This document shows positions 8,024 to 63,530 of a stretch of DNA of 64,000 bases, in pieces. The stretch's first letter is position 1. Every line of letters starts with the position of its first letter. Origin of the DNA: Streptomyces sp. NBC_01351 (lineage in GTDB: Bacteria > Actinomycetota > Actinomycetes > Streptomycetales > Streptomycetaceae); NCBI RefSeq assembly GCF_036237315.1, contig NZ_CP108356.1:1364001-1428000 (forward strand), read 5' to 3'. The translations under genes were made by a program, and so were the position numbers. A model generated the notes under the pieces. That model did not search any database, had not been told where the DNA came from, and saw nothing but the letters and a program-made list of their open reading frames with translations.

Positions 8024-8030
8024 GACGGGT

Positions 8031-9206
8031 TCACTTCCTCGTGGGAGCCGCGGCGGCGTATTCCTGGGCGACGTCGACGAGGAACGCTGCCTCGTCCGCC
8101 AGGTCGCCGTCCGCCTTCGTGGTCTGGATCGCGGCCGGGAGTTCCAGCGCGGCCGCCTCGCCCGCCTGCCCGGGCAGGCCGTCGAGTTTCGCCTGCCGCG
8201 CCTCCCTCAGTACGGAGGCCAGCGCGGCCGCGGTGCGGCGCTGCTCGGGGACCCCGCGTCCGGCGACCTGGCCGCGGGCCTGCTCCAGGGCGCCCGGGGC
8301 GACGTACTCCCCCAGGATCAGGATCGCGTCGCGGGTCTCGATGACCTTGCGGTAGACGAGCAGGTTGCGCGGTACGGGCGGCCACAGCAGCTCCACCACC
8401 CGGCCGGCCCGCGGCTTGTTGAGGGCGACGTGCGGGACGGCCTGCACCAGGTCGCGCCACAGGGGCCACAGCCGCCACGCGGTGGCGATGTCGGCGGCGC
8501 CGCGGCGGAAGAGGAACAGGGTCGGCACGAGGATGGCGGCCGCGCGCAGCAGGCCGTGCAGGTTCATCATCAGCGGCAGCGCGGGCATCGCCCACGTGCT
8601 GCCGAACAGCCCCTTGAGCAGGTACGCGAACCAGAACAGGCCGGCGAGCGCGGTGCCGAGCCCGAAGAGCAGCAGCCCGGCGGCCAGCCCGCGGCTCTCG
8701 GTGCGGCGGCTGTAGCGCCAGCACAGGGCCACGCAGACGGTGTTGGCGACCAGGTGCGCGGAGATCAGCACCAGCCAGTACGCGAGTGAGGGCACCGGGT
8801 CGCCGACCGGCGGCATGGTGTGGCTGCCGTGAGCGGGGGCGGCCGCGTCCAGGGCGAGGAGGGCGGCGATCCACCCCACGGTCGCCACGCAGGAGGCGAG
8901 TTGGAGCCTGCGGCCCCGGGTGGTGGCGGCCACGAAGTAGAGCACGGCGCCCGCCGACAGCACGCCGATGAAGTTGCGGGAGAGCCCGATGGCGTGGGCG
9001 TAGTCGGGGCCGCGGCGCATCGCGTACGCGACCACGTCGGGCAGGTTCAGGGTCATCGCGGCGGCCGCGGTGGCCACCGCCAGCCACAGTCCGCGCTGTT
9101 GCGGGGAGCGCAGGGCACCGGGGGCACGGAGCAGGAGGGCGATCCACAGGCACACCACGCTCGGGACGGCCAGCCAGTTGCCGAAGGCGGTCAGATCAGC
9201 TGCCAT
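8031..9206 (-). CDS. MAB_1171c-family 7-TM membrane protein, module A
   Basis: 391 residues. About seven hydrophobic segments fill residues 10-235, followed by a soluble tail of roughly 150 residues. It shares spaced motifs with the two paralogues of module B: Y..L..AH near 143-151, CWRYSR at 162-167, LWPLW at 246-250, and a helix YRKVIETRDAIL that matches their RDIFDAVL/DISDRLL segment. The family carries a 'putative transporter' label but no function is established; the 7-TM plus cytosolic tail layout is equally like a receptor. The start overlaps the end of the protease gene by 11 bp, so the two are translationally coupled. Confidence 0.78.
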   Translation of the reverse strand: MAADLTAFGNWLAVPSVVCLWIALLLRAPGALRSPQQRGLWLAVATAAAAMTLNLPDVVAYAMRRGPDYAHAIGLSRNFIGVLSAGAVLYFVAATTRGRRLQLASCVATVGWIAALLALDAAAPAHGSHTMPPVGDPVPSLAYWLVLISAHLVANTVCVALCWRYSRRTESRGLAAGLLLFGLGTALAGLFWFAYLLKGLFGSTWAMPALPLMMNLHGLLRAAAILVPTLFLFRRGAADIATAWRLWPLWRDLVQAVPHVALNKPRAGRVVELLWPPVPRNLLVYRKVIETRDAILILGEYVAPGALEQARGQVAGRGVPEQRRTAAALASVLREARQAKLDGLPGQAGEAAALELPAAIQTTKADGDLADEAAFLVDVAQEYAAAAPTRK

Positions 9207-9699
9207 CGTTCCTCCGCTCGTACCCCATGGCCGACTCCAGCCGGGCCAGGGTGCCGCGCGGCCGGACCGTGGTCCCGTGTGCCGCGGTGTTCGCCGTGCG
9301 GATGCGGATCATGCTGGCGAGCATCTCCGCTTCCTGCTCCTGGCGGGTGGTGTAGTTGGTGCGTCCGAGGACGGTGGGGACGTGGTCGTCGTTCCCCTCC
9401 CCCTCGACCGAGTGGTGGCCGAAGAGGATGTGGCCGAGTTCGTGGAGAACGATGTGCTCCCGGTGCAGCGGGGTGGTCTGGGCCTCGTAGAAGACGTAGT
9501 CGACGTTGACGGTGCCCACCCAGAGCCCGCAGACGCCCGTCTCCGCCGCCTCCTTGGGGAGCGGGTGGAGCCGGATGGGGCGGCCCCGCTGTTCGGCTAT
9601 GCGGTTGCAGAGCTCGTCGAGGGAGAACGGATGAGGCAGTTCCAGATGGCCGAGAATGTTCTCGCACCTTTTGCGCAGACTGACTTGCCGGTGGGACAT
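9196..9699 (-). CDS. ImmA/IrrE-like zinc metalloprotease, module A
   Basis: 167 residues. The zinc-binding HELGH is at 86-90 and a downstream EQEAEMLAS (about 121-129) supplies the probable third ligand, as in ImmA/IrrE proteins. In characterised cases these proteases cut an XRE-type repressor on a signal (ImmA/ImmR of ICEBs1, IrrE/DdrO of Deinococcus). Here no repressor gene is adjacent, so its substrate would be encoded elsewhere. Start chosen at ATG 9699 with GAGGGA upstream; an in-frame ATG at 9777 is less likely. Confidence 0.75.
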   Translation of the reverse strand: MSHRQVSLRKRCENILGHLELPHPFSLDELCNRIAEQRGRPIRLHPLPKEAAETGVCGLWVGTVNVDYVFYEAQTTPLHREHIVLHELGHILFGHHSVEGEGNDDHVPTVLGRTNYTTRQEQEAEMLASMIRIRTANTAAHGTTVRPRGTLARLESAMGYERRNDGS

Positions 9700-9812
9700 G
9701 TGATCCCTCTTCGGACCCTTTCTCGGGCAGCGTCTGTAGGCGTGCGGGGGCATGGGCATGGTGTCCTGTGCCTTCAAAGCGGCCTCGGGGAACGCGGTCC
9801 TGAGGGGAATGC

Positions 9813-9901
9813 GGAAGCCCGTCCGCCGAAGTGACGAACGGGCGTTCCACCATGCCTACATATCTTGTACGACCATTGGCAAGACAAGTCCCCACGTGGG
9901 G
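9813..9901 (-). promoter_or_regulatory. Promoter, palindrome and leader hairpin of module A
   Basis: On the minus strand TTGTCT (9882-9887) and GATATG (9859-9864) are separated by 17 nt, a plausible promoter for the protease operon. Just upstream is a perfect 12-bp palindrome CCCCACGTGGGG (9890-9901). The predicted 150-nt leader contains a hairpin (9813-9822 with 9838-9848, one bulge) that could instead be the terminator of tex. Confidence 0.45.
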
Positions 9902-9945
9902 TACGTATTCGGCCATTCCGTACGCATGCCCGCGCGGGGCACGGC

Positions 9946-12429
9946 CTAGCGCTTGCGGCGCTCCTCGGGGCCGGTGAGGCCCGCGCGGCGCAGGGCGTCC
10001 GCCATCGCGCTGTTGGCGGGGGCGGGGCCGGAGGCGCTGCCGCCGCCGCCCTGCCGCTGGCCCTGACCGCCGCCTCGCTGGCCCTGGCTCTGGCCCTGGC
10101 CCTGGCCCTGACCCTGACCCTGACCGCCGCCACGCTGGCCCTGGCCCTGGCCCTGACCGCCGCCGCGCTGCTGGGGCGGACGGCCGCCGCCGGAGCGGCG
10201 CTCCTGCCGGTCCTGCCGGTCCTGCCTCGGGGCGCCGACTGCCGCCGTCCGGTCGGCCTCGTCCTCCAGCCGCAGCGTCAGTGAGATCCGCTTGCGCGGA
10301 ATGTCCACGTCCATGACCTTCACGCGGACGATGTCGCCCGGCTTGACCACGTCCCGCGGGTCCTTGACGAAGTTCTTCGACAGCGCCGAGACGTGCGCCA
10401 GTCCGTCCTGGTGGACGCCGATGTCGATGAAGGCGCCGAAGGCGGCCACGTTGGTGACCACGCCCTCCAGGATCATCCCGGGGGCCAGGTCGCCGATCTT
10501 CTCCACGCCCTCCTTGAAGGTGGCCGTCTTGAAGGCGGGGCGCGGGTCGCGGCCCGGCTTCTCCAGCTCGCGCAGGATGTCGGTGACCGTGGGCAGGCCG
10601 AAGGCCTCGGTGACGAACTGCTCCGGGCGCAGGGAACGCAGGACGGAGGTGTTGCCGATCAGGGCCGCCACCTCGCCGCCCGCGGTCTTGCCCATGGCCC
10701 GGACCACCGGGTACGCCTCGGGGTGCACGGCCGAGCCGTCCAGCGGGTCGTCCCCGCCGCGGATGCGGAGGAAGCCGGCGCACTGCTCGTACGCCTTCGG
10801 GCCGAGGCGGGCCACGTCCTTGAGGCCCTTGCGGCTGCGGAAGGGGCCGTTGGCGTCGCGGTGGGCCACGATGTTCTCGGCGAGGCCGCCGCTGATGCCC
10901 GACACGCGCGAGAGCAGCGGCGCGGAGGCGGTGTTGACGTCCACGCCGACGCCGTTCACGCAGTCCTCGACGACCGCGTCGAGGGAGCGGGAGAGCTTCA
11001 CCTCGGCCAGGTCGTGCTGGTACTGGCCGACGCCGATCGACTTCGGGTCGATCTTGACGAGCTCGGCGAGCGGGTCCTGGAGGCGGCGGGCGATGGAGAC
11101 CGCGCCGCGCAGGGACACGTCCATGCCGGGGAGTTCCTGCGAGGCGAAGGCGGAGGCCGAGTACACGGAGGCGCCCGCCTCCGAGACCATCACCTTGGTG
11201 AGCTTCAGCTCGGGGTGGCGGGTGATGAGGTCCCCGGCGAGCTTGTCGGTCTCGCGGGAGGCCGTGCCGTTGCCGATGGCGACGAGCTCGACGGCGTGTT
11301 CCTTCGCGAGGCGGGCCAGCTTCGCGAGGGACTCGTCCCACTTATTGGCGGGCACGTGCGGGTAGATCACGTCGGTGGCCACGACCTTGCCGGTGGCGTC
11401 GACGACGGCGACCTTCACACCGGTGCGGAAGCCCGGGTCGAGACCGAGGGTGGCGCGGGTGCCGGCGGGGGCCGCGAGCAGCAGGTCGCGCAGGTTCGAC
11501 GCGAAGACCCGTACGGCCTCGTCCTCGGCGGCGGCGCGCAGCCGGGTCCGCAGGTCGATCCCGAGGTGCACCTGGATCTTCGTACGCCAGGCCCAACGGA
11601 CGGTGTCGGCCAGCCACTTGTCACCCGGGCGGGCGCGGTCGGCGACGCCGAAGCGGCGGGCGATCATGCCCTCGTACGTGGACGGCCCCGGGGTCTCACC
11701 CGGTTCCTCCGGCTCCAGCTCCAGGCTGAGGACGTCCTCCTTCTCGCCGCGCAGCATGGCGAGGACTCGGTGGGAGGGCAGTGCGGTGAACGGCTCGGTG
11801 AAGTCGAAGTAGTCGGCGAACTTGGCGCCCGCCTCCTCCTTGCCCTCGCGGACCTTCGCCGCGAGCCGGCCGCGGCCCCACATGCGCTCGCGCAGTTCGC
11901 CGATGAGGTCGGCGTCCTCGGCGAACTTCTCGGTGAGGATGGCGCGGGCGCCCTCCAGGGCGGCGGCCGGGTCGGCGACGCCCTTGTCGGCGTCGACGAA
12001 CGCGGCCGCGGCGGCGGCCGGTTCCACCGACGGGTCGGCCAGCAGGCCGTCGGCGAGCGGCTCCAGACCGGCCTCGCGGGCGATCTGCGCCTTGGTGCGC
12101 CGCTTGGGCTTGAAGGGCAGGTAGATGTCCTCCAGCCGGGCCTTGGTGTCGGCCGCGTTGATCCGCGCCTCCAGCTCGGCGTCGAGCTTGCCCTGCTCCC
12201 GTACGGAGTCCAGGATCGCCGAGCGCCGGTCCTCCAGCTCGCGCAGATACCGCAGCCGCTCCTCGAGGGTGCGCAGCTGGGCGTCGTCGAGCATCTCGGT
12301 CGCTTCCTTGCGGTAGCGCGCGATGAACGGCACGGTGGAGCCGCCGTCGAGCAGCTCGACCGCGGCCTTGACCTGCCGCTCCCGTACGCCGAGCTCCTCG
12401 GCGATCCTGCCTTCGATGGACGTCGTCAC
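9946..12429 (-). CDS. tex: Tex family transcription accessory protein with S1 domain
   Basis: 827 residues. Tex proteins bind RNA and affect transcription; the family order is visible: N-terminal helical region (MTTSIEGRIAEELGVRERQVKAAVELL), the YqgF/RNase H-like centre (LGLDPGFRTGVKVAVVDATG), helix-hairpin-helix elements (DVNTASAPLLSRVSGISGG; FRSRKGLKDVARLGPKAYEQ) and an S1 domain (ILEGVVTNVAAFGAFIDIGV). After the S1 domain comes a disordered Gly/Gln/Arg-rich tail of about 80 residues, longer than in Gram-negative Tex and probably RNA-binding. The gene is isolated from its neighbours by intergenic gaps. Confidence 0.93.
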   Translation of the reverse strand: MTTSIEGRIAEELGVRERQVKAAVELLDGGSTVPFIARYRKEATEMLDDAQLRTLEERLRYLRELEDRRSAILDSVREQGKLDAELEARINAADTKARLEDIYLPFKPKRRTKAQIAREAGLEPLADGLLADPSVEPAAAAAAFVDADKGVADPAAALEGARAILTEKFAEDADLIGELRERMWGRGRLAAKVREGKEEAGAKFADYFDFTEPFTALPSHRVLAMLRGEKEDVLSLELEPEEPGETPGPSTYEGMIARRFGVADRARPGDKWLADTVRWAWRTKIQVHLGIDLRTRLRAAAEDEAVRVFASNLRDLLLAAPAGTRATLGLDPGFRTGVKVAVVDATGKVVATDVIYPHVPANKWDESLAKLARLAKEHAVELVAIGNGTASRETDKLAGDLITRHPELKLTKVMVSEAGASVYSASAFASQELPGMDVSLRGAVSIARRLQDPLAELVKIDPKSIGVGQYQHDLAEVKLSRSLDAVVEDCVNGVGVDVNTASAPLLSRVSGISGGLAENIVAHRDANGPFRSRKGLKDVARLGPKAYEQCAGFLRIRGGDDPLDGSAVHPEAYPVVRAMGKTAGGEVAALIGNTSVLRSLRPEQFVTEAFGLPTVTDILRELEKPGRDPRPAFKTATFKEGVEKIGDLAPGMILEGVVTNVAAFGAFIDIGVHQDGLAHVSALSKNFVKDPRDVVKPGDIVRVKVMDVDIPRKRISLTLRLEDEADRTAAVGAPRQDRQDRQERRSGGGRPPQQRGGGQGQGQGQRGGGQGQGQGQGQGQSQGQRGGGQGQRQGGGGSASGPAPANSAMADALRRAGLTGPEERRKR
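10078..10160 (-). repeat. tex: Hexamer repeat encoding the Gly-Gln tail of Tex
   Basis: Tandem CTGGCC/CTGACC hexamers on the plus strand encode alternating Gly-Gln on the coding strand, interrupted by Arg-Gly-Gly. The low-complexity tract is likely to vary in length by slippage. Confidence 0.8.
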
Positions 12430-52642: not shown

Positions 52643-52687
52643 GAAACGATCGTTTCATTGCGAATCCGACCGTTCCCATGATCTAGT
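52643..52687 (+). promoter_or_regulatory. Palindromic operator and promoter of module B
   Basis: GAAACGATCGTTTC (52643-52656) is a perfect 14-bp palindrome. Immediately after it, TTGCGA (52658-52663) and TCTAGT (52682-52687) are 18 nt apart and form a plausible promoter for the HTH gene at 52750. The position fits control of the -35 region. Confidence 0.5.
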
Positions 52688-52749
52688 GGCGGCGCGGGTC
52701 GGGGCCTCATCCGGACCGCATGTTCCCCTTCATCCTGCCCGGAGGATCC

Positions 52750-53361
52750 ATGAGCGACGGGTACGAGCAGCTCGCCGAGACCGTGAGAGAGGTCGAGCAG
52801 CTCCAGTCGGAATCGGGGCTCGACAAAGCGTCAGTTTTCAACCTGCACGACCTCTCGTTCCAGACCTCCCTTCCGGAGGCCGACATCCGGCGACTGCTCG
52901 ACGGTGAGCCCGTCGAATCGCCGAGAAGCGGCCCGGCCGAGCTCGCCCGCCGCATCGCATTCCTGAGGGAAACCCGTCTTACCGTGGACGAGCACACAGG
53001 CAGCCGACGTCAGTACACGATCGTCGAGATTGCAGCCGGCAGTGGGATGACGCCGCAGTGGCACGGCAAGCTGCTGAACCAAAGCACGCCGAACATCTGG
53101 CACGGCGCGGGCCTGGCCAAGTTCTTCAACGTCCCCATGGAATACTTCACCCACACGCCACCCGAGGCCCTGAAGCGAGTTCTGGACAGCAAGGTCATCC
53201 CAGACCTCACGGCGCTCCTGAAGAACCCTTCCGAGGCTGTGATGAATCGCCACGCCATGCAGATCCAGCTCCGTCTTGGCGACAAGGAGCTGCCGCCGAA
53301 TCTGGAGACGGCGCTGATGGCCTTCGTGGACGCGATCTCACAGGAAAGCTCCGGCCCCTAA
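52750..53361 (+). CDS. EspR-like HTH transcriptional regulator, module B
   Basis: 203 residues. The DNA-binding part is predicted at 64-135: AELARRIAFLRETRL, then YTIVEIAAGSGMTPQWHGKLLNQSTPN and HGAGLAKFFNVPMEYF, the layout seen in mycobacterial EspR and related XRE proteins (helix, insert with TxxEIA, recognition helix, FFxVPxxYF). A helical N-terminus of 60 residues precedes it and a helical C-terminus follows. GGAGGATCC precedes ATG 52750. Its neighbour encodes an ImmA/IrrE-like protease, whose usual substrates are XRE repressors. Confidence 0.72.
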   Translation: MSDGYEQLAETVREVEQLQSESGLDKASVFNLHDLSFQTSLPEADIRRLLDGEPVESPRSGPAELARRIAFLRETRLTVDEHTGSRRQYTIVEIAAGSGMTPQWHGKLLNQSTPNIWHGAGLAKFFNVPMEYFTHTPPEALKRVLDSKVIPDLTALLKNPSEAVMNRHAMQIQLRLGDKELPPNLETALMAFVDAISQESSGP

Positions 53362-53470
53362 GGTCGGGGCGGGGACGCAGACGACTGACCTGACTTTCAG
53401 TCACAGGAAGCTGCAAAGCGAGCCACGGCTTCACCACCCATCGGAGCGAACGCAGAGTGGGGGCACTCGG

Positions 53471-54139
53471 ATGAACCAGCGGCAGATGGCCGACTTTCAT
53501 GAGTGGGTACTCGCGGCGATCGGCAGGCTGACACCTCCCAAGAGCCTGCTTGCCGCGCCGAGGACCTACCTGGCGCGGCGGTCAGGCGAGTGGAAGATCG
53601 CGAAGTTCTGCGACGAGCTTCTCGCGGGGCTCGACAGGCCCATTCCCTCAGATCCGGACAGCTTGTTCGAGGTGTTGAGGGCCGACGTCGAGCGGCGCTT
53701 CAACGAGGACCGCGGGGCGCTCCCGTACCGCCCGGTCCACCTGTACTTCCGCGAATTTCCCGATGGGACGGCCAGCGGCCTCACCGCGAGATTCGACGAC
53801 CGACTCGTGATCATCGTCGAGAGTCAGACGACCACGCTTCACCAGTTCGTGATCTTCGCACACGAGATGTGGCATGCCCTGATGGGGGAGTGCCTGGCTC
53901 ACGGGGCCCACAGCGACGTTGCCGCAGCAGCCGCCCGGTCGCTCGGTGGTGAACTGGCAAGCGACGACCTCGTCGCCCTGGCCGCGAGGAGCCACGTCAA
54001 CACCAAAGAGGAAAACGACGCCGAGGAGTTCGGGCTGCAGCTGGGAGCCCGCCTGCGGGAGTACCTCGAAGGTGGCGGTGCCGTGCCGGTCACCGGTTTG
54101 GCAGGCCGGATCCAGTCCAGCATAGGCAGAGGCTACTGA
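53471..54139 (+). CDS. ImmA/IrrE-like zinc metalloprotease, module B
   Basis: 222 residues. HEMWH at 131-135 is the zinc motif, with the preceding helix HQFVIFA; a downstream EENDAEEFGLQLG (about 180-192) supplies the likely third ligand. Strands at LPYRPVHLYFREF and RLVIIVES lead into the active site, as in ImmA. It is longer and only distantly similar to the module A protease. The stop and the following ATG are 2 bp apart, so it is coupled to the first 7-TM gene. Inferred role: signal-dependent cleavage of the upstream HTH protein. Confidence 0.72.
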   Translation: MNQRQMADFHEWVLAAIGRLTPPKSLLAAPRTYLARRSGEWKIAKFCDELLAGLDRPIPSDPDSLFEVLRADVERRFNEDRGALPYRPVHLYFREFPDGTASGLTARFDDRLVIIVESQTTTLHQFVIFAHEMWHALMGECLAHGAHSDVAAAAARSLGGELASDDLVALAARSHVNTKEENDAEEFGLQLGARLREYLEGGGAVPVTGLAGRIQSSIGRGY

Positions 54140-54141
54140 GC

Positions 54142-55353
54142 ATGACCGGATCGGACTACTACATACCCGCCGGCGTCCTGGCCATCGCCTTGGTGGTGAA
54201 GTCGCCCTCGTTCTGGCGTACCTGGCACTCGCCGATGTCGAAGTCGATTTTCGTGATCCTCACGTCCTCGGCGGCGGGCTTCGTGTTCGGTGCTCCGCCG
54301 ACGATCGAACGGGTCAACCGCATCACCGGCGTCCCGAACATCTCGGCGCTGATCGTCTACTGCATCCTGTCATGCCTGTCGTGCGGCTCGCTGGTGCTCC
54401 TCATGCACTGGCGTGGGGGGCCCGAGGAGACCGTCCGGCGGCACACCAGAATGTGGATCGCGGCAACCGCCGCGGTGATCGCGACGTTTTGTGTCCTCTT
54501 CTCGCTCGGCAACGTGCCCATCGAGCAACAGCGCGACTTCGACACCTTCTACGCGACCACCCCCTACGCGCGCGAGATGATCGTTCTCTACCTGACCGCG
54601 CACACCACCACCAGTCTCGTGGTGGCGACGAAGTGCTGGCGGTGGGCACGTGAACTTCGAGATCTCCAGGCGGCGTGGACCCACTGGGGTCTGCTCATCC
54701 TCGTGGCCGCGTTCGGCCTCACCTTGTCGTTCGCCCTGGCCAAGTTCCTGGCTGTCGGCGCCCGCTGGGCCGGGACGGACACCTGGGACTCGCTCAGCAC
54801 CGACGTCGCTCCCCCCCTTGCAGGACTGGGCGCAGGCATGACCACGATCGGTTTCCTGCTCCCCGTCGTCGGGCCGCAGCTGGGGTCGATATGGGTGTCC
54901 TGGCGGGCCTACCGGGCGATGGAGCCCCTCTGGCATGCGCTCGAACCATTCTCGGGTCCTGGCAAGCCCATGCGGATTCGTCCTACCTCGTCGCCGGAGA
55001 TCCGGGCGATGGCCAGGGCCACCGACATCTCCGATCGTCTGCTCAATCTGGCGCCCCACCTGGACGGCAGCCACCGCGAGGCAGCCGAGCGATACGCCTC
55101 CGCGCAAGGATGCGAGTCGGAAGCCGCCCTCATCTTCGCCGAAGCGGCCACGATCCACGCCGCCCTGGCCGCCGCGAAGGCCGCCGGGACGCCGGCATCC
55201 GGACAGACAGCCGTCGCCGTCGCCGTCGAAACGAGCACCACGCTTCCCACCCGCGTCTCCGGAACGAACGGTCTTGCCCGACTGAGCATCCAGTTCTCCA
55301 AGATCCACCGTTCCGGCTTCCCCGCCGGCGCCGCCCACTCAGAGAGCAACTGA
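54142..55353 (+). CDS. MAB_1171c-family 7-TM protein 1, module B
   Basis: 403 residues. Seven hydrophobic helices lie between residues 7 and 245, followed by a soluble C-terminal tail of about 155 residues. Motifs shared with its neighbour: GVPNI (63-67), HWRG (89-92), TPYAREMIVLYLTAHT (140-155), FLLP (238-241) and PLW (262-264). AHT and PLW also align with the module A protein. No ATPase or transporter signature is visible; 7 TM plus a cytosolic tail would suit a receptor. The label 'putative transporter' for the family is not backed by function. Confidence 0.77.
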   Translation: MTGSDYYIPAGVLAIALVVKSPSFWRTWHSPMSKSIFVILTSSAAGFVFGAPPTIERVNRITGVPNISALIVYCILSCLSCGSLVLLMHWRGGPEETVRRHTRMWIAATAAVIATFCVLFSLGNVPIEQQRDFDTFYATTPYAREMIVLYLTAHTTTSLVVATKCWRWARELRDLQAAWTHWGLLILVAAFGLTLSFALAKFLAVGARWAGTDTWDSLSTDVAPPLAGLGAGMTTIGFLLPVVGPQLGSIWVSWRAYRAMEPLWHALEPFSGPGKPMRIRPTSSPEIRAMARATDISDRLLNLAPHLDGSHREAAERYASAQGCESEAALIFAEAATIHAALAAAKAAGTPASGQTAVAVAVETSTTLPTRVSGTNGLARLSIQFSKIHRSGFPAGAAHSESN

Positions 55354-55393
55354 TCATGCGCACTCCTCCCCAAGCGGCGCACGCGAGCCGCCG

Positions 55394-56575
55394 GTGAACG
55401 CGGGAACGGCTTTCCTGTCCGCGGCCGCCGGCTTGTTCGTCGCCACCGCCATCAAGCTCTGGGCGCTGCGGAAGAACCCTCGGGACCCGCTTCTGAGGGC
55501 GGTGACCGCGACCCTTTTCGTTGGCGCGCTCCTGTTCGTCACCGCCGCCCCGCCGAATCTCGCAGCCATCAACGCGATGCTCGGCGTACCGAACATCGCG
55601 GCACCCATCGTGTACTCGATCTTGACCGCGTTTGACGGCGTCAGCATCGTGCTGCTGATCCACTGGCGGGGAAACGATGATCCGCGTGCCACCCGGCGTC
55701 AGACCCGGCTGTGCCTGATCACCTACGCCGCGGTGGCGGTGGCCGTCTACGTCCTGTTCGCGCTGGGCGACACACCGGTCGAGCGAATCCGTGACCTGGA
55801 CACCTACTACTCCAGCACGCCCTGGATCCGCGAGATGATCCTTCTCTACCTGGCGGCGCACACCGTAGCGGCCGTCACCATGGTGGTCCTCAGCCGGCGT
55901 TGGTCGAGGCAGGTCCCCGGCACCCTGAAGCTCGGGCTGCTGCTGATAGCCGCAGGGGCGGCAAGCTCCGTCGCCTACGACCTCTTGAAGTTCACGGCGA
56001 TCGTTGCCCGCTGGCTCGGGCACGACTGGGACTGGCTGAGCACCCACGTCGCTTTCGCCCTGGCCGGTTTCAGCGCCTTCCTGGTCTCCGCCGGTTTCCT
56101 CCTCCCACCCCTCGCACAAGGCTTCGGCTCCCGGTGGCGGGCCCTTCGCCGCTTTCGCCGGCTCCAACCTCTGTGGCTGGAGATCCGCCCGGAGATACCT
56201 CCGACAAGTCCGCCGCCAATGCCTTGGTGGCAGTCCGTGGAGCACCGCCTCATGCAGCGCGAAAGGGATATCTTCGACGCGGTACTGCGGCTGACGCCCT
56301 GGTTCGACCGCTCGATCGGCGCGAAGGTCTACGCGCTCGCCTTGGCAGAGCACTCCGACAGCCGCCGGGCCCGCGGCGAGGCCGATGCCTCCGTGATAGC
56401 CCGCGCGGTCATCCAGAAGAGTTGCGCCTCACCCGCAGTCACGCCGGAACATCGATGGATGGTCAGCTCCATTGAGGACTCCGATGACCTCGTCAACATG
56501 TCCGCCGCCATGCTGTGCTCCCCGCGAGTGGAGGTGACACGGCAGTCCACGGTACTCGCCGAGGACAGTGCATGA
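55394..56575 (+). CDS. MAB_1171c-family 7-TM protein 2, module B
   Basis: 393 residues beginning GTG 55394, 40 bp after the first copy. Same topology (TM 1-7 within residues 5-240, soluble tail 150) and same motifs at near-identical positions: GVPNI (64-68), HWRG (90-93), TPWIREMILLYLAAHT (142-157), FLLP (235-238), PLW (259-261), RDIFDAVLRLTPWFDRS. The two are tandem paralogues that have diverged strongly, mostly in the tail, which suggests different ligands or a heteromeric complex. The stop overlaps a micro-ORF as ATGA. Confidence 0.77.
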   Translation: MNAGTAFLSAAAGLFVATAIKLWALRKNPRDPLLRAVTATLFVGALLFVTAAPPNLAAINAMLGVPNIAAPIVYSILTAFDGVSIVLLIHWRGNDDPRATRRQTRLCLITYAAVAVAVYVLFALGDTPVERIRDLDTYYSSTPWIREMILLYLAAHTVAAVTMVVLSRRWSRQVPGTLKLGLLLIAAGAASSVAYDLLKFTAIVARWLGHDWDWLSTHVAFALAGFSAFLVSAGFLLPPLAQGFGSRWRALRRFRRLQPLWLEIRPEIPPTSPPPMPWWQSVEHRLMQRERDIFDAVLRLTPWFDRSIGAKVYALALAEHSDSRRARGEADASVIARAVIQKSCASPAVTPEHRWMVSSIEDSDDLVNMSAAMLCSPRVEVTRQSTVLAEDSA

Positions 56576-56640
56576 GCACGGAGAGCAGGCTGAGAGCCCG
56601 CTTCCGGTCCGCCGCTCAGAGGCTTCTCGCAGAGCGATGA
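56572..56640 (+). CDS. Micro-ORF, 22 residues, basic amphipathic
   Basis: MSTESRLRARFRSAAQRLLAER starts in an ATGA overlap with the 7-TM gene stop (56572-56575) and ends in a second ATGA overlap (56637-56640). The peptide could form a basic amphipathic helix. Two back-to-back overlaps in one operon favour translation, but peptides this short are hard to confirm. Confidence 0.35.
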   Translation: MSTESRLRARFRSAAQRLLAER

Positions 56641-56789
56641 CCATGACCACCACTCACCCGAAGCACGGCGAGGTCCTCCACGTCGGGAGCCTGTGGGACG
56701 TCAACGGTCTGGCATCCGGCTCAAGCCGTTCGCCCCGGGCCTCTCCACACGCCTTTCGCGCGCATGGGCGGCAGCAGGTCGGGTTCTGA
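56637..56789 (+). CDS. Small ORF, 50 residues, unknown
   Basis: It starts at ATG 56637 (or 56643) overlapping the micro-ORF stop and ends with TGA at 56787-56789. The product is MTMTTTHPKHG, then EVLHVGSLWDVNGLASGSS, and a basic His/Arg/Ser-rich end (HGRQQVGF). No known family. Size and position between 7-TM and flavoenzyme genes invite comparison with a peptide precursor, but no modifying enzyme of a known RiPP class is present. Confidence 0.4.
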   Translation: MTMTTTHPKHGEVLHVGSLWDVNGLASGSSRSPRASPHAFRAHGRQQVGF

Positions 56790-56906
56790 GACTGCGAGCC
56801 CGCTGACCCGGAAACCTGGCCGGAACCGGGCACGGAGCGAGAATGGCACCCGCGCCCGGGAGCCACGACCGGACTTCGCGTGACGACATTCAGAGGGGAA
56901 TCTTCC

Positions 56907-58169
56907 ATGCACCTGTCCACACCTCTCGTACTGCGGAACGGCAGCCGCATTGCGAACCGGATCGCGAAGGCCGCCATGGAGGAAAGCCTTGCCCGGCAGC
57001 CCGGACAGTTGCCCGGGCCGGAGATCGAGGAGCTCTACCGCAGTTGGGCACGCGGCGGGAGCGGACTGATCATCACGGGAAACGTGATGGTGGACCGGCG
57101 GGCCCTCACTTCTCCGGGAACGATCGTGCTGGACGCCGAAACCGACCTGGCCCCGTTCCGTCGCTGGGCTGTGGCGGCCGGCTCGGAAGGCGGCCAGGTC
57201 TGGATGCAGATCAACCACCCAGGTCGGCAGGTCCGGTCGGACCTTCCCGGTGTCGCATGGGCGCCGTCCGACATCGGCGTCAGCCTCGGAAAGCACACCA
57301 GCGCATTCGCCCGCCCGACGGCCATGAATGAAGGGGACATTCAGGCCACGATCGACCGGTTCGCCACAACGGCACGTCTCGCGGAGGAGAGCGGGTTCCA
57401 CGGCGTCCAGATCCACGCGGCCCACGGCTACCTCCTCAGCCAGTTCCTCTCGCCCCTGGTGAACCGCCGCACCGACCGATGGGGCGGCAGCCTTGAGAAC
57501 AGAGCCAGGCTGCTTCTGGAAGTGGTGCGCGCCGTCCGCACTGCGGTTTCCCCGGCCTTCGCCGTGAGCATCAAGATCAACACCGCTGATTTCCAGCGAG
57601 GCGGCTTCGACATCGACGAGGTGGAGCAGGTACTCGCCTTCCTCAAAGACCTCGACGTGGACCTGGTGGAACTCTCCGGCGGAAGCATGGAGAGCGCCGC
57701 GACCATGGGCCGCACGGCCGACGACAGGAAGCTCGACCGGGAAGCGTACTTCCTCGCCATCGCCGAGCGGCTCGTCGCATCCGCGCCCATGCCGCTCATG
57801 CTGACGGGAGGCATCGGTCGGCGCGCGTCCGCCGAGCGTGTCCTGGCGGGCGGGTTCGCGATGGTCGGTCTGGCCACCGCCCTCGCACTCCGCCCCGACC
57901 TGCCCACACGCTGGCAGCAGGGAGAGGACATCGAGGTTGCAGCGCCTCGCCTGAACTGGCGAGACACGGACATCGCCAGCGCAGGCGTCCTGGCCCTCGT
58001 CCGGGCCCACCTGAGCCGCATTTCCCGCGGCCGCCCGCCTCGTGCGCGGGCCTCCGCGCGCCTCGCCCTCACCCTTGACACCCTGCGGAACCGAGGAATG
58101 ATCCGCGCGTACGGGCAGTGGCTCGCCCAGAACCCGGCCCCGGAGGCAACCACACCGTTCAGAGGCTGA
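56907..58169 (+). CDS. NADH:flavin oxidoreductase, Old Yellow Enzyme family, module B
   Basis: 420 residues. FMN barrel motifs: NRIAKAAMEE, QINHPGRQVRSD, the family hallmark GVQIHAAHGYLLSQFLSPLVNRRTDRWGGSLENR, and LTGGIGRRASAERVLAGG. It likely reduces activated double bonds with NAD(P)H. The short C-terminus lacks the iron-sulfur and second FAD domains of larger members. ATG 56907 has GAGGGGAA upstream; GTG 56880 is in frame. It lies 117 bp after the 50-residue ORF on the same strand. Confidence 0.88.
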   Translation: MHLSTPLVLRNGSRIANRIAKAAMEESLARQPGQLPGPEIEELYRSWARGGSGLIITGNVMVDRRALTSPGTIVLDAETDLAPFRRWAVAAGSEGGQVWMQINHPGRQVRSDLPGVAWAPSDIGVSLGKHTSAFARPTAMNEGDIQATIDRFATTARLAEESGFHGVQIHAAHGYLLSQFLSPLVNRRTDRWGGSLENRARLLLEVVRAVRTAVSPAFAVSIKINTADFQRGGFDIDEVEQVLAFLKDLDVDLVELSGGSMESAATMGRTADDRKLDREAYFLAIAERLVASAPMPLMLTGGIGRRASAERVLAGGFAMVGLATALALRPDLPTRWQQGEDIEVAAPRLNWRDTDIASAGVLALVRAHLSRISRGRPPRARASARLALTLDTLRNRGMIRAYGQWLAQNPAPEATTPFRG

Positions 58170-58188
58170 CAGATCGGGGCCGGCGGGC

Positions 58189-58209
58189 GCCGGCCTGGTT
58201 CAGGCCGGC
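58189..58209 (+). terminator. Hairpin between the flavin reductase and monooxygenase genes
   Basis: A perfect 9-bp stem GCCGGCCTG/CAGGCCGGC on a GTT loop starts 19 nt after the reductase stop. It could end module B's main transcript or attenuate expression of the monooxygenase. Confidence 0.6.
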
Positions 58210-58324
58210 CAGGCGCCGTGCTCGTCAGGGCCCGCACATGCCGCCCGATCTCACGAGCTCCACATCCACGCTCCACATCGACTTCCGCCGTACCGACCGA
58301 CGTCGGGGCAGAGAGCAGACCTGC

Positions 58325-59740
58325 ATGGCCACCACCTCCCAACCTCGTCCCCGGGTTCTCATCCTCGGAGGCGGGCTGAGCGGCACCCTGGCAGCAGCCG
58401 CCCTCGCTCCGCACAGCGACAGCATCGACATCGTCGAGCGACACCCCCTGCCGGATGCCGCAAAGCCCCGCCGCGGCCTTCCCCAGGCCCGCCACGCCCA
58501 CATGCTCTGGTCGGGCGGGGCCGACGCGATCGAATCGCTGCTCCCGGGAACCATGGACATGTGGCTACGCGCCGGCGCGCACCGGGTGCCCATTCCCAAC
58601 GGCATGATCTCGCTCTCTCCCGGCGGCTGGTACCGGCGGTGCTGGCCCGAGGCTCAGTACCTCATCAGCGCCAGCCGCGACCTCGTCGACTGGGCCGTCC
58701 GCACCCAGGCCCTGGCGATTCCGGGGGTTCGCCTGCTGTCCGAGGCCGAGCCGGTTCGCCTCCTCGGCACCCGCACCCGAGTCACCGGTGCGGCCATCCG
58801 GCATCGGGACGGCACCGTGGAAGCTCGCGAAGCCGACCTGGTCATCGATGCCACGGGCCGCTCCTCGCATGCCCCGGGCTGGCTGACCGAGCTGGGCATG
58901 CCGGCCGTTGCCGAGACCGTGGTCGACGCGGGAGTCACCTACGCGAGCCGCCGCTACAAGGCGCCGGTCGATACCACCGGCTGGCCCGTCATCAACGTCC
59001 AAGCCGATGCCCGACTGGCTGTGGCCGGCACGGCCGGCACCATCCTCCCCATCGAGGGCGGTGAGTGGATGGTCAGCCTCTCCGGCACCCGCGGCGGCGA
59101 ACCCACCAGCGACGGAACCCAGTTCACGGCGTTCGCCCGCCAGATGCGAAGCCCTCTCATAGCCGATTACCTGGCCCGTGCCGAGCCCCTCGGCCCAGTG
59201 ACGGTCGCCCGGAACACGGCCAATCGGCGTCGCCACTATGAGAAGGCCCGTGTCGACGGCTTCATCGCGCTCGGGGACTCCGCCACCGCTCTCAACCCGC
59301 TCTACGGGCACGGCATGTCCGCAGCAGCCCAGGGCGCCCGGGCCCTGCGCGACCTGGCGGCGAACAGCGACATCACGTCGAAGGGATTCGCGCGGCGCGC
59401 ACAGCGTGCGATCGCTCGCCCCGCGGCCGCCGCCTGGCTTCTCGCCGTCGGCCAGGACGCCGCCTTCCTTCACGAGGCCGGGAAGAAGCCCAAGCTCGCC
59501 GACCGCCTCGCCGCCAGGTATGTCAATCGCCTCATCACGACGGCCTGCTCGGACTTCACCGCTGTCGAAGCCCTCACCGACGTCATGACCCTCCAGGCGA
59601 GCGGGGTGGTCCTCGCCCACCCCCGGATCCTCCTCGCCGCGATCCGCGGCCCCCGGCTCGCGCCGCTCAGCGGACCCGCCCTCACCTCGGCCGAGGAAGC
59701 GGTACTCCTCGGCCGGCCCGTCCCAACGCCCACCCCATGA
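58325..59740 (+). CDS. FAD-dependent monooxygenase, LasC/epoxidase-like, module B
   Basis: 471 residues. The FAD-binding start is VLILGGGLSGTLAAAALAPH, with the internal ADLVIDATGRSSHAPGWL and the GD motif GFIALGDSATALNPLYGHGMSAAAQGA. The group includes polyether epoxidases such as LasC, tryptophan-halogenase relatives and uncharacterised oxygenases; no halogenase WxWxIP motif is seen. It would oxygenate a lipophilic substrate. ATG 58325 is used as homology begins there, although its ribosome binding site (AGAG) is weak; an upstream ATG at 58238 exists. It is separated from the reductase by a hairpin. Confidence 0.85.
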   Translation: MATTSQPRPRVLILGGGLSGTLAAAALAPHSDSIDIVERHPLPDAAKPRRGLPQARHAHMLWSGGADAIESLLPGTMDMWLRAGAHRVPIPNGMISLSPGGWYRRCWPEAQYLISASRDLVDWAVRTQALAIPGVRLLSEAEPVRLLGTRTRVTGAAIRHRDGTVEAREADLVIDATGRSSHAPGWLTELGMPAVAETVVDAGVTYASRRYKAPVDTTGWPVINVQADARLAVAGTAGTILPIEGGEWMVSLSGTRGGEPTSDGTQFTAFARQMRSPLIADYLARAEPLGPVTVARNTANRRRHYEKARVDGFIALGDSATALNPLYGHGMSAAAQGARALRDLAANSDITSKGFARRAQRAIARPAAAAWLLAVGQDAAFLHEAGKKPKLADRLAARYVNRLITTACSDFTAVEALTDVMTLQASGVVLAHPRILLAAIRGPRLAPLSGPALTSAEEAVLLGRPVPTPTP

Positions 59741-59922
59741 CCGCCGTCCGGATCTCGCGCCGTTCGGTTGACAGACCCGTCAGCGGCCCTGCGGGCGGGG
59801 GCCGAGGTCATGGGTGGCAGGAACCGGCGCCCGCGGGGCCGGCATCCGACGCGAGACGGACGAACGCACTACGACCATCCTGCGCAGCGGGCAGCATCGG
59901 TGACGTGTCCGACGCCGGGGCT

Positions 59923-60942
59923 TCAGGGCTCGTGTTTGGCGCGGCTCGGCTGGACGCGCTTCGGTTCGCCCGGCATTTTCGGGTAGTCCGGCGGGTACGG
60001 CATGTCGCCCAGGCCGTGTTCGTGTTCGTCGCGGTCCGCGAGTTCCAGTACGGCCTCCAGGCTGAAGGCGTGGTCGTCCATGTCCGCGTGCAGGTCGCCC
60101 AGTTCGGCGAAGCGGGCCGGCATCGTCACGATGTCGAAGTCGCGCGGTTCCGCGTCGTCCACCTCGTCCCAGCGCAGCGGGGCCGAGACCGGGGCGTGCG
60201 GGCGGGGGCGGACGGAGTAGGCGGAGGCGATCGTGCGGTCGCGGGCCGTCTGGTTGTAGTCGACGAAGATCCGCTCGCCGCGCTCCTCCTTCCACCAGGC
60301 CGTCGTGACCTTGCCCGGCATGCGGCGCTCCAGCTCCCGGCCGAGGGCGATCGCGCACCGGCGGACCTCGGTGAAGGTCCAGCGCGGGGCGATCGGGACG
60401 AAGACGTGCAGGCCGCGGCCGCCCGAGGTCTTGGGCCAGCCGCGCAGGCCCAGTTCCTCCAGCAGGGCGCGCAGTTCATGGGCGGCCGCCACCGCGTGGT
60501 GGTAGTCGGTGCCCGGCTGCGGGTCCAGGTCGATGCGCAGTTCGTCGGGGCGGTCCGTGTCCTCGCGCCGTACGGGCCAGGGGTGGAAGGTGAGGCAGCC
60601 CAGGTTGGCGGCCCACAGGACGGCCGCCGGCTCGGTGGGGCAGATCTCGTCCGCCGTGCGCCCGCTGGGGAAGGCGATGTGGGCGGTCGGGATCCAGTCG
60701 GGGAGGTTCTTCGGGGCGCGCTTCTGGAAGAAGGACTCGCCCTCCACCCCGTCCGGATAGCGCTCCAGGGTCGTGGGCCGGTTCCGCAGGGCGCGCGTGA
60801 TGCCCTCCGCGACCGACAGGTAGTACTGGGCCACGTCCCTCTTGGTGAGGCCGCGCTCGGGGAAGTACACCTTGTCCGGGCTGGAGAGGCGGACCGCACG
60901 CCCGCCCGCGTCCAGCTCGATCGCATTACCGGCAGCACCCAT
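59923..60942 (-). CDS. LigD-type DNA polymerase/primase domain protein (NHEJ)
   Basis: 339 residues corresponding to the stand-alone polymerase domain of LigD. Motifs are LSSPDKVYFPERGLTKRDVAQYY, ERYPDGVEGESFFQK, the two metal-binding aspartates in ELRIDLDPQPGT, and SGGRGLHVFVPI. It fills in and adds ribo- or deoxynucleotides at double-strand break ends. It is divergent from an ATP-dependent ligase; in Streptomyces these activities are split into separate genes. No Ku gene is in the window. Confidence 0.9.
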   Translation of the reverse strand: MGAAGNAIELDAGGRAVRLSSPDKVYFPERGLTKRDVAQYYLSVAEGITRALRNRPTTLERYPDGVEGESFFQKRAPKNLPDWIPTAHIAFPSGRTADEICPTEPAAVLWAANLGCLTFHPWPVRREDTDRPDELRIDLDPQPGTDYHHAVAAAHELRALLEELGLRGWPKTSGGRGLHVFVPIAPRWTFTEVRRCAIALGRELERRMPGKVTTAWWKEERGERIFVDYNQTARDRTIASAYSVRPRPHAPVSAPLRWDEVDDAEPRDFDIVTMPARFAELGDLHADMDDHAFSLEAVLELADRDEHEHGLGDMPYPPDYPKMPGEPKRVQPSRAKHEP

Positions 60943-61017
60943 GGGGGCCACGTTAGGCGGGCCCGGGCGGCCGCGCATACCGGGCGGGTCCGGACGTACC
61001 ACCGCAGAATCATGAGC

Positions 61018-62103
61018 ATGGATCTGCCGGTGATGCCCCCCGTGAAACCGATGCTCGCCAAGTCCGTGGCCAAGATCCCGCCCGGCATGCAGTACGAGGC
61101 CAAGTGGGACGGTTTCCGGGCGATCGTGCATCGGGACGGCGACGAGATCGAGATCGGCAGCCGCACGGGGAAGTCCCTGACCAGGTATTTCCCGGAGCTG
61201 GTGGCGGCGCTGCGGATCAATCTGCCCGACCGCTGCGTCATGGACGGCGAGATCGTCATCGTCAATGGCGGGCGGCTCGACTTCGACCGGCTGACCGAGC
61301 GGATCCATCCCGCCGCCTCCCGCGTGAAACTGCTCGCCGAGACGACCCCCGCCAGTTTCGTCGCCTTCGACCTGCTCGCCCTCGGCGACGAGGCGCTCCT
61401 CGACACCCCGCTCACCGAGCGCCGTACCGCCCTTGCCCAGTCCCTCTCCACCGCTCGGCCCCCCGTTCACCTCGCGCCCGCGACCACCGACCCCGCGCTC
61501 GCGCGGGAGTGGTTCGAGCGGTTCGAAGGCGCCGGGCTCGACGGGGTGATCGCCAAGCCGCTCGATCTCCCCTACCGGCCCGATGCCCGCCTCATGTTCA
61601 AGATCAAGCACGAACGTACCGCCGACGTCGTCGTCGCGGGTTTCCGTTTCCACAAGAGCGGTCCGATTGTCGGATCGCTCCTGCTGGGGTTGTACGACGA
61701 CACCGGCGTCCTCCAGCACGTGGGCGTGTGCGCCGCCTTCCCCATGAAGCGGCGCGCCGAGCTGGTGGAGGAGCTCGACCCGCTGCGGATGGAAGACCCC
61801 ACCGGGCATCCCTGGGCGGCCTGGGCCGAGGAGTCCGCGCACGAGAGCGCCCGGCTGCCCGGCGCGCAGAGCCGCTGGACCGGCAAGAAGGACCTGTCCT
61901 GGGTGCCGCTGCGCCCGGAGCGGGTCGTCGAGGTCGCCTACGACCACATGGAGGGCGACCGCTTCCGGCACACCGCCCAGTTCCGCCGGTGGCGGCCCGA
62001 CCGGGTGCCGGAGAGCTGTACGTACGCCCAGTTGGAGGAGGTCGTCGGCTACGACCTGGCGGAGGTGCTCGGCCCGCGGCCGGACGCCGCGGGGGCACCC
62101 TGA
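61018..62103 (+). CDS. ATP-dependent DNA ligase (LigD ligase-domain type)
   Basis: 361 residues. The nucleotidyl lysine is K29 in EAKWDGFRAI (K-x-D-G), with later motifs MDGEIVIV, FVAFDLLAL, LDGVIAKPLDLPYRPD and the C-terminal OB-fold RPERVVEVAYDHMEGDRFRH. It seals nicks using ATP in non-homologous end joining. The -10-like CAGAAT (61005-61010) lies 7 nt before ATG 61018, suggesting leaderless expression; ATG 61012 in the same frame is the alternative. Confidence 0.9.
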   Translation: MDLPVMPPVKPMLAKSVAKIPPGMQYEAKWDGFRAIVHRDGDEIEIGSRTGKSLTRYFPELVAALRINLPDRCVMDGEIVIVNGGRLDFDRLTERIHPAASRVKLLAETTPASFVAFDLLALGDEALLDTPLTERRTALAQSLSTARPPVHLAPATTDPALAREWFERFEGAGLDGVIAKPLDLPYRPDARLMFKIKHERTADVVVAGFRFHKSGPIVGSLLLGLYDDTGVLQHVGVCAAFPMKRRAELVEELDPLRMEDPTGHPWAAWAEESAHESARLPGAQSRWTGKKDLSWVPLRPERVVEVAYDHMEGDRFRHTAQFRRWRPDRVPESCTYAQLEEVVGYDLAEVLGPRPDAAGAP

Positions 62104-62111
62104 GGCCCGCC

Positions 62112-63530
62112 TCAGCCCGTCGTCAGCTTCTCCCACTCCCCCCGGTCCGGGCCCGCGAGCCTCGGCGCGTAGTCCGGACGCGCTTCCAGCCAGCGCGCGA
62201 CCCGGGCCCGGATCTCCGGGCCGGCGTACGCGCGCTCCGGCGGCTCGGCCAGGTGTCGGACCCGCGCCCTCGCCCGCATCACCTCCGGGTCCTCCAGCGC
62301 GCAGTCGAACAGCGCCGCCACCTCGCGCGGCGTCCCCGAGCGCACGGCCCGGGTCGCGAACCGCTCCCCGATCGCCGAGTCGGCGACCACCTGGAAGTCG
62401 AACCAGGGCTTCAGCGTGCGCACCGCCCAGTCGTGGTACTCGGCGGCGAACCGCTCCGATCCGGGGTCCTGGTGCGCCGTACGGGCCACCCTGAGCGCCG
62501 CCCACAGCGCGAGCGAAGTGCCCTGCCCGAGGGTCGGGTTGGTGTGCGTGATCGCGTCCCCGATCGGGACCAGCCCGCTCACCACGGGGCCCCGCTCGTC
62601 GGCCTGCGGGCTCCACCGGTTGTCCAGGCTCGCGGTGGCGAGTACGTCCGACAGCGGTCGCGCGCCCAGTGCCAGCCAGGCCTCGCCGGGCGGGAAGGCC
62701 CGGGCGGCCCCCTCGAAGATCGCGGGGTCGCGCAGCGCCGAGCGCGTGGTGTCGGTGGTGTGCACGAACAGCGTCACGGCGAACACCCGGTTGTCGGCGG
62801 GGAAGACCGCGCACCCGGCGAAGGCCCCGCCGGTCACCGCCCACGGGCGGCGCGGCCCTTCGTCCATGCCCTCGGGCAATCGGTACCAGCGGCAGAAGTA
62901 GGCGAGTCCGGTGCGGTGCCGTTCCACGACGGCCGGCCGGCAGCCCGCCGCGGTCAGCCAGCGCTCGGCGCCGCCCCGGCGCCCGCCCGCGTCCACCACG
63001 AGGTCCCCCTCGTAACTCCCCTCGTCGGTCGTCACCCCCGTCACCCTGATCCCTGGGGTACCGGGCGTCCCGGGGGCCGCGGTGGGCATGGGGGCCGCGG
63101 TCAGCCCGGTGACCGGTTCCCCGTACCGCGAGACGACCCCCGGTTCGGCGCGCAGGGCCGTGGCCAGCGCGCTCTCCAGCAGGATGCGCCGGGCCTGGAT
63201 CATGACGAGGTCCTCGTCGCCGGGGCGCGCGGGAGGACGTACGTCGAACCAGTCCAGCTCGTGCCGTTCGCGGGCGCCGAGCCGGAGCATCTCCTCGTAG
63301 ACATCGGGCAGTTCGTGCCGCAGGACAGCGCGCGCGGCGCCGAGCAGTGCGTGCGGCTGGCCCGCCTGCGGTACGGACGGACGGCGCCAGCCGAAGAAGT
63401 CGCGGTCGAGGGCGGTGCCCGGGGCGCGGGTGTCGCGCTCGAACAGTTCGGCGGTGTGCCCGTGCCGTGCCGCGAGCAGGGCGGTGGCCAGGCCTCCGAT
63501 GCCTCCGCCGATGACCAGCACGTGTGCCAT
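62112..63530 (-). CDS. FAD-dependent oxidoreductase/monooxygenase (LasC-like)
   Basis: 472 residues. Rossmann start HVLVIGGGIGGLATALLAARHGHTAELFERD, DLVVDAGGRRGGAERWL and the GD motif PIGDAITHTNPTLGQGTSLAL. It belongs to the same broad group as the enzyme at 58325 but has a longer C-terminal helical part with ARVRHLAEPPERAYAGPEIRARVARWL. The substrate is unknown. It converges on the ligase gene with 8 bp between stops. Confidence 0.85.
   Translation of the reverse strand: MAHVLVIGGGIGGLATALLAARHGHTAELFERDTRAPGTALDRDFFGWRRPSVPQAGQPHALLGAARAVLRHELPDVYEEMLRLGARERHELDWFDVRPPARPGDEDLVMIQARRILLESALATALRAEPGVVSRYGEPVTGLTAAPMPTAAPGTPGTPGIRVTGVTTDEGSYEGDLVVDAGGRRGGAERWLTAAGCRPAVVERHRTGLAYFCRWYRLPEGMDEGPRRPWAVTGGAFAGCAVFPADNRVFAVTLFVHTTDTTRSALRDPAIFEGAARAFPPGEAWLALGARPLSDVLATASLDNRWSPQADERGPVVSGLVPIGDAITHTNPTLGQGTSLALWAALRVARTAHQDPGSERFAAEYHDWAVRTLKPWFDFQVVADSAIGERFATRAVRSGTPREVAALFDCALEDPEVMRARARVRHLAEPPERAYAGPEIRARVARWLEARPDYAPRLAGPDRGEWEKLTTG

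Follow-up and report, generated by a model that had tools for sequence, protein, structure and literature searches.

What joins a DNA-binding regulator, a protease, two seven-transmembrane (7-TM) proteins and two flavoenzymes on one strand of the Streptomyces sp. NBC_01351 genome? These genes occupy positions 52,643 to 59,740 of the 64,000-nt stretch of contig NZ_CP108356.1 that was analysed (hereafter the window), and a preliminary description of this DNA had proposed them as one new system. Comparison with other actinobacterial genomes showed that the EspR-like regulator (H), the putative IrrE/ImmA-type metalloprotease (I) and the 7-TM protein (D) are a real module, often followed by an enzyme gene whose family goes with the clade of D. 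With a probability of roughly 45%, we read the whole as a self-contained chemical-sensing cassette, in which D would sense a compound and act through I and H on the expression of the enzyme. The parts of the cassette are as follows.

52643 to 52656, no strand: candidate operator of H, the perfect 14-bp palindrome GAAACGATCGTTTC, at the left border of the conserved cassette
52750 to 53361, + strand: H, EspR-like XRE-type regulator with an extra N-terminal region, named from its profile match to EspR
53471 to 54139, + strand: I, putative IrrE/ImmA-type metalloprotease with an HExxH motif and a predicted IrrE fold
54142 to 55353, + strand: D1, predicted 7-TM receptor-like protein of the MAB_1171c family (NF042915) with a DUF6545 tail (PF20182)
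55394 to 56575, + strand: D2, second predicted 7-TM protein (NF042915), an old paralogue of D1
56643 to 56806, + strand: relic of MO1, a deleted LasC-like monooxygenase, which keeps the start codon and the residues MTTTHPKH as in MO1 of loci L030-L033
56907 to 58169, + strand: old-yellow-enzyme-family (OYE) reductase (PF00724, E 8.7e-50)
58325 to 59740, + strand: MO2, flavin monooxygenase like LasC/Lsd18 and MonCI, of the epoxidase family (PDB 8up4, E 8.5e-99)

All genes named in the preliminary description are present on the + strand where it had placed them, and their order and overlaps recur so widely as to be beyond chance. For H, the start at 52750 (203 aa, as called in three of four orthologues) is likelier than that of the gene caller at 52720. 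The terminator scan of the window found no terminator-like site on the + strand between D2 and OYE and one weak site inside D1, at 54471, and the promoter scan gave no sigma-70-like site before H.

Of the 41 genomes of the genus, our own included, 36 had matches to the D family (121 matches, median 3 per genome); beyond the genus, so did 35 of 41 genomes in the order sample, 58 of 296 in the class and 12 of 198 in the phylum. The DNA around most of these matches was taken, up to 20 kb at a time, several short contigs and some order-level matches being left out; the resulting 140 stretches, with the window and L030-L033, made 145 sequences, in which genes were called with a codon model. A D gene was called in 140 of them, giving 149 D modules, and the five without one (L018, L067, L100, L119 and L120) were excluded. 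In 124 of the 149 modules I lies directly upstream of D on the same strand, most commonly at a spacing of -4, i.e. with a 4-base overlap, and in 62 of these 124 our own H profile finds H next upstream of I. D is doubled in 19 modules. The preliminary description had set the module against random neighbours around MAB_1171c homologues, and the module survived this comparison, with I at the position before D in 124 of 149 cases as against one I (beside four H and three LasC-like genes) among 890 genes lying more than five genes from D.

The same arrangement extends outside the genus. In 16 loci, namely the best-scoring 15 from other genera (33 outside-genus genomes were matched) and L153 from another class, I precedes D in all 16 and H precedes I in 15. 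L153 is a tight H-I-D operon (H up to 9141, I 9142-9681, D 9678-11087), the next gene being on the opposite strand. D genes were also found on 19 Streptomyces plasmid records (NZ_CP108815.1, NZ_CP108443.1 and others), some of them with two or three places.

The modules also occur in decayed form. Our own genome holds a remnant in which I and D are fused, with a P450-cluster gene behind it (L013, 9591-11233), and another eroded module made up of H, a D tail and a LasC-like gene (L154, 3128-5831); in both, the enzyme gene has outlasted the protease and the receptor. The 151-aa remnant of L013 is the only one among all called proteins that matches both I and D, and no other fused sensor-protease was seen among them. 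In another genome (L105) the D match is broken by an in-frame TGA.

As for the gene behind D, 105 of the 149 modules carry a same-strand gene within 300 nt, and 103 of these fall outside the core of the module. By clustering, the 103 comprise 50 LasC-like monooxygenases, 9 PAP2-like proteins, 8 cytochromes P450, 8 amidohydrolases, 7 short-chain dehydrogenases (SDRs), 5 TPR-like proteins, 4 amidases and 12 others, where the clusters were named from one or two scanned members each together with a tally of all 103, and the PAP2 and TPR matches lie below the Pfam cut-offs. D is thus followed by a gene of one of seven families in 91 of 149 modules. LasC-like monooxygenases account for 50 of the 115 same-strand genes next behind D as against 3 of the 890 distant ones. 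In other genera, a PAP2-like gene stands behind D in six of the 16 loci and an amidase in one.

The family of the enzyme goes with the clade of D. On a tree of 96 D proteins of at least 300 aa, all from modules whose gene behind D belongs to one of the seven families, the families require 7 changes where the minimum is 6, while shuffled labels required 43.8 on average and 39 at the lowest; counted family by family, PAP2 changes three times, P450 twice and the other five once each. Freely swapped cargo is ruled out, as the enzyme families follow the D clades. The preliminary description had expected variable redox enzymes at this place: the seven main families do vary, but not all are redox enzymes, the TPR-like class is perhaps no enzyme, and each family is nearly confined to D clades of its own. 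The partnership is also seen from the side of the enzyme. Among MO2 homologues in the 41 genomes, 35 of 43 close ones (E at most 1e-90, with MO2 itself counted) have a D gene no more than 5 kb away, compared with 1 of 20 and 2 of 16 of those more distant. One of the eight close homologues away from D belongs to the eroded module of our own genome with H, the D tail and a monooxygenase. The order differs in L084, L089 and L140, where I and D are separated by a gene of 472-508 aa that is LasC-like by offset count (there are three LasC-like genes at that place). In L176, L177 and L181, from other genera, a convergent flavin adenine dinucleotide (FAD) oxidoreductase lies behind D on the opposite strand and looks by eye like a relative of geranylgeranyl reductase.

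The window cassette itself was compared with its nearest relatives, L030-L033, whose D1 proteins are 83-86% identical to that of the window. H, I, D1, D2, MO1 (in the window its relic), OYE and MO2 are common to all five strains at 71-92% protein identity, OYE being 88.5-92% and MO2 82-85% identical. DNA similarity to the four orthologues extends from 1-39 nt ahead of the palindrome to 59727-59747, close to the MO2 stop. The five strains hold the cassette between different flanking genes in the stretch compared, which reached about 8.5 kb upstream and, downstream, only 0.4 kb (L031) to 4.4 kb. No flanking gene is common to the five, save a weak 39% match of an 84-aa open reading frame (ORF) to L032; two further flank matches are paralogues, one of the window FAD oxidoreductase at 62112 to MO2 and the other of an extra I-D pair before the L033 cassette. 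Since the cassette occurs as a block between flanks that are unrelated in the stretch compared, the flavoenzymes are tied to the regulatory genes more firmly than by spacing, which bears out the earlier assignment of the flavoenzymes to the unit.

The two micro-ORFs that had been counted as parts of the system fared otherwise. Both exist as ATGA-linked ORFs (56572-56640 and 56637-56789). In L030-L033, a LasC-like gene of 401-443 aa (MO1) stands between D2 and OYE in each locus, and the window keeps its start codon, its first eight residues (MTTTHPKH), a short internal piece and an out-of-frame C-terminus; two internal deletions have removed the FAD-binding motif. The second micro-ORF is, by this sequence comparison, the relic of a second monooxygenase, a third flavoenzyme kept by the four close relatives. 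The first overlaps the D2 stop in five of five loci, its peptides ranging from 22 to more than 79 residues with neither length nor sequence conserved. Because the second is a deletion scar and the first lacks conservation, the micro-ORFs are ruled out as genes of the system.

D1 and D2 score 123.3 and 136.3 bits against NF042915, whose curated cut-off is 100, and both carry the DUF6545 tail (PF20182; E 3.5e-11 for D1). The D2 model has seven predicted TM helices in a GPCR-like bundle (GPCR, G-protein-coupled receptor), with the N-terminus predicted outside and the C-terminus inside, and the outside loop between helices 4 and 5 is the best conserved segment of D. Among solved structures near the D model, with Foldseek's top 1000 as candidates, the best 50 listed are all GPCRs or designed GPCR-like proteins. 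The best match to a receptor family of Pfam among nine D proteins had an E-value of 1.5 (7tm_7, D1). D2 gave no phage match, and a phage origin was dropped on that ground. In L153, from a deep-branching actinobacterium, D ends in an HD-like tail (PF13487, 29.1 bits against a cut-off of 27.2; PDB 4r8z, E 2.1e-7), which is degenerate and by eye has apparently lost the HD pair; the D1 and D2 tails of the window gave no HD match.

In the I protein, the motif H131 E132 H135 and the downstream E181, the presumed third zinc ligand, are invariant in 105 aligned homologues, chosen from 132 listed; the 27 left out were near-copies and the shortest or weakest. PF06114 is matched by 27 of the 105 and not by I of the window. 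Because the latter thus had no Pfam assignment, structure was used instead, and a second look with VIA ranked IrrE first for the I model, which is accordingly predicted to have the IrrE fold. When the I profile was run against PDB sequences, entries of BepA alone were returned, at E 0.0055 or worse. The parts available of PMC8072749 and PMC2701414 describe IrrE and ImmA as acting on XRE repressors by proteolysis. In the source records, I homologues bear the name "toxin component".

A profile of the H proteins (85 of 87) matched EspR (PDB 4ndw) at E 2.4e-35, profile positions 92-226 corresponding to EspR 19-151, i.e. to the helix-turn-helix (HTH) and the C-terminal part. HTH_3 is matched by 53 of the 85 H proteins; H of the window itself gave no HTH_3 match. 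The palindrome GAAACGATCGTTTC before it is unchanged in L031-L033 and differs at one position in L030. The 8.9-Mb genome of our strain holds it exactly in one place and with one mismatch in two, one of these lying 104 nt before a paralogous H (37% identical to H of the window) that heads the eroded module with the monooxygenase. With up to three mismatches, it occurs upstream of 9 of 91 H genes, compared with 5 of 1289 control genes. The window and its near relatives make up five of the nine, and the other four (L081, L082, L096 and L101) are more independent. Other H classes have palindromes of their own at about -95, mainly GCCACAGCTGTGGC, whose eight carriers are mutual relatives. GCCACAGCTGTGGC stands about 95 nt before H in L012, L046, L050, L060 and L121, where no same-strand gene follows close behind D, and likewise before H in L049, L128 and L134.

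MO2, the last gene, aligns with Lsd18/LasC over its residues 11-461 (PDB 8up4, the match listed above) and with MonCI over residues 3-471 (E 2.6e-98), so that by sequence it is a full-length homologue of the LasC/MonCI epoxidases.

Taken together, the parts suggest the following circuit. D1 and D2, membrane proteins whose outer face is conserved and whose tail is predicted to lie in the cytoplasm, would bind a lipophilic small molecule; ligand-bound D would free or activate I; and I would cleave or disable H, sitting as a repressor on its palindromic operator. The operon would then be induced, including the enzyme of the last gene, which would oxidise or otherwise modify the same molecule and so close a feedback loop. 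In the window, this part would fall to the ene-reductase-family protein and the LasC-like monooxygenase. The ligand, the cleavage of H, repression in place of activation and the action of the enzyme on the ligand of D are what we infer, and the chain from ligand to cleavage would follow the precedent of IrrE and ImmA. The set of enzymes (oxygenases, reductases, dehydrogenases, amidases, amidohydrolases and lipid-phosphatase-like proteins) fits the modification or breakdown of lipophilic bioactive compounds.

Several observations weigh against the sensing cassette. Our H profile finds H in only half of the 124 modules with I before D, 44 of the 149 modules are without a same-strand gene close behind D, 12 of the 103 genes in that position fall outside the seven families, and the TPR-like class may not be an enzyme. 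When modules with no gene or another gene behind D are kept as states on the tree, the monooxygenase label needs 13 changes (41.8 when shuffled), and the inheritance of cassettes as wholes would equally lead enzyme and D clade to match. As regards structure, the Pfam scan of I gave no match, its model is middling (pLDDT, the predicted local distance difference test, 71.8), and Foldseek gave it no match at E 0.001, IrrE being absent from the 50 matches listed. For D, too, the Foldseek E-values fall short of significance (best 0.047), and the GPCR-like matches may reflect merely a seven-helix bundle. Finally, the other one-mismatch palindrome of the genome lies between what look like sugar-metabolism genes and their regulator with no H nearby, and by eye the palindrome before H adjoins a possible -35 region, a position that makes repression likely but would allow activation just as well.

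Other explanations were weighed on the same data. That the regulator, protease and 7-TM genes stand beside unrelated flavoenzymes by chance is hardly credible: the 44 modules with no same-strand gene close behind D would agree with it, and it is refuted by the conserved adjacency, the cassette shared by five strains, the proximity of MO2 homologues to D and the matching of D clades. The cassette could also be a hormone circuit, in which the enzyme makes or finishes an endogenous signal, D perceives it and I and H amplify its production, as enzymes make the endogenous signals of the butyrolactone and avenolide systems. This we consider unlikely. The enzymes next to D are in good part of a tailoring type (monooxygenase, P450, SDR, PAP2-like) and 36 of the 41 genomes of the genus have D genes, both of which speak for it, but a single enzyme in each module would not suffice to build a signal unaided, several different modules coexist in a genome, and amidases and amidohydrolases (12 of the 103 genes) suit breakdown better.

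More improbable again is a D that transports the substrate or product of the enzyme while H and I regulate it. NCBI names the family "putative transporter", and in the knockout study of MAB_1171c (PMC8707978, available part) the mutant formed about half the biofilm and the authors regarded the gene as encoding a transporter. Against this stand the single predicted seven-helix bundle, with GPCRs or GPCR-like designs as its best 50 listed solved neighbours, the outside loop 4-5 as the best conserved segment, and the regular pairing with a regulatory protease. We give very little credence to the idea that H and I form a toxin-antitoxin-like pair or serve the immunity of a mobile element, D being accessory to them. 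The name "toxin component", the D genes on 19 plasmid records and the listing of IrrE-type/XRE pairs among toxin-antitoxin-like systems and on mobile elements (PMC2701414, available part) point that way; yet a constant D with a clade-specific enzyme is ill-suited to addiction, H, I, D1 and D2 have no PADLOC match, and D2 has no phage match. PADLOC likewise returned nothing for OYE and only a weak match for the monooxygenase (E 0.0078), and a known defence system was ruled out on the lack of matches for H, I and D. Pfam and NCBIfam scans of the window proteins found no toxin family, and the genes do not answer to a type II toxin-antitoxin system.

The window contains a second module, of the SDR class and paralogous to the first:

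7235 to 9699, - strand: I (9196-9699), D (8031-9206) and a short-chain dehydrogenase (7235-8023; PF00106, E 4.4e-43)

A third, that of L012, lies just past the window (G000:C1:1435998) and has no gene on the same strand behind D. On the right flank of the main cassette, convergent genes at 59923-62103 look by eye like a LigD-type polymerase and an ATP-dependent DNA ligase, and the FAD oxidoreductase beyond them and outside the cassette (62112-63530, - strand) is 27-30% identical to MO2 of L030-L033.

Turning back to the sensing cassette, its nearest known counterparts are ImmA/ImmR and IrrE(PprI)/DdrO (COG2856, M78), in which an HExxH protease of IrrE fold likewise stands beside an XRE-type regulator with a palindromic site. 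Unlike these, the cassette adds a 7-TM protein and a small-molecule enzyme in the operon, and its H is EspR-like. ImmA is triggered by DNA damage or cell-cell cues. The trigger of IrrE is thought, in the available text of PMC8072749, to be released zinc. EspR of mycobacteria shares with the H profile a match that includes the C-terminal part, whereas H of the window has 203 aa, extra N-terminal sequence and a protease as neighbour, EspR chains having 123-153 aa. The BlaR1/MecR1-BlaI-beta-lactamase systems combine a membrane sensor, a metalloprotease, a repressor and an enzyme acting on the inducer. Their logic is that proposed here, except that sensor and protease of the cassette are separate genes of other folds, and that different sensor clades go with different enzyme families.

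D1 and D2 score as members of MAB_1171c/DUF6545, a family name with no tested function, and neither the H-I partners nor the enzyme classes are part of the family description. 7TMR-HD receptors carry an HD domain after seven TM helices. The D protein of L153 resembles them and the HD-GYP phosphodiesterases in having its HD-like domain after the membrane part, but differs by the apparent loss of the HD pair, and the D tails of the window are without an HD match. With GPCRs, D shares the predicted seven helices, topology and bundle, a likeness that bears on how D may work and not on membership; to our knowledge, coupling to heterotrimeric G proteins is not to be expected in bacteria. MO2 resembles Lsd18/LasC and MonCI over about 450-470 residues (E about 1e-98), yet neither a polyketide synthase nor a prenyltransferase is encoded in the cassette itself. 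As far as the available text of each paper goes, Lsd18 has an extra-large pocket for its polyene (PMC12144862), and XimD, 33% similar to LasC, is proposed to epoxidise a geranylated substrate (PMC4053376).

In the literature searched, which left most subscription papers outside its scope, we found no description of the H-I-D module and no mention of DUF6545, and MAB_1171c turned up only in the knockout study cited above; this agrees with the earlier statement that no described system of this make-up was known. Each of the parts belongs to a known family, and the assembly appears to be new: a putative repressor-cleaving protease switch with a built-in receptor and a matched enzyme. In broader terms, and as a tentative proposal that we hold rather doubtful, D may represent an actinobacterial receptor class of GPCR architecture, one branch being an obligate D1/D2 heteropair, which would bypass G proteins and kinases and signal by releasing a dedicated IrrE-type protease onto an EspR-like repressor; each clade would be wired to one ligand-processing enzyme family, and the class would be ancient, portable and present about three times per Streptomyces genome.

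If the sensing cassette is as we read it, function and partners would be given to a family now named "putative transporter" and "toxin component", as well as to many orphan P450s, monooxygenases and hydrolases. IrrE-type proteases would gain a membrane-receptor input. The modules would, moreover, be ready-made inducible sensors of small molecules, in which the matched enzyme would hint at the chemistry of the ligand.

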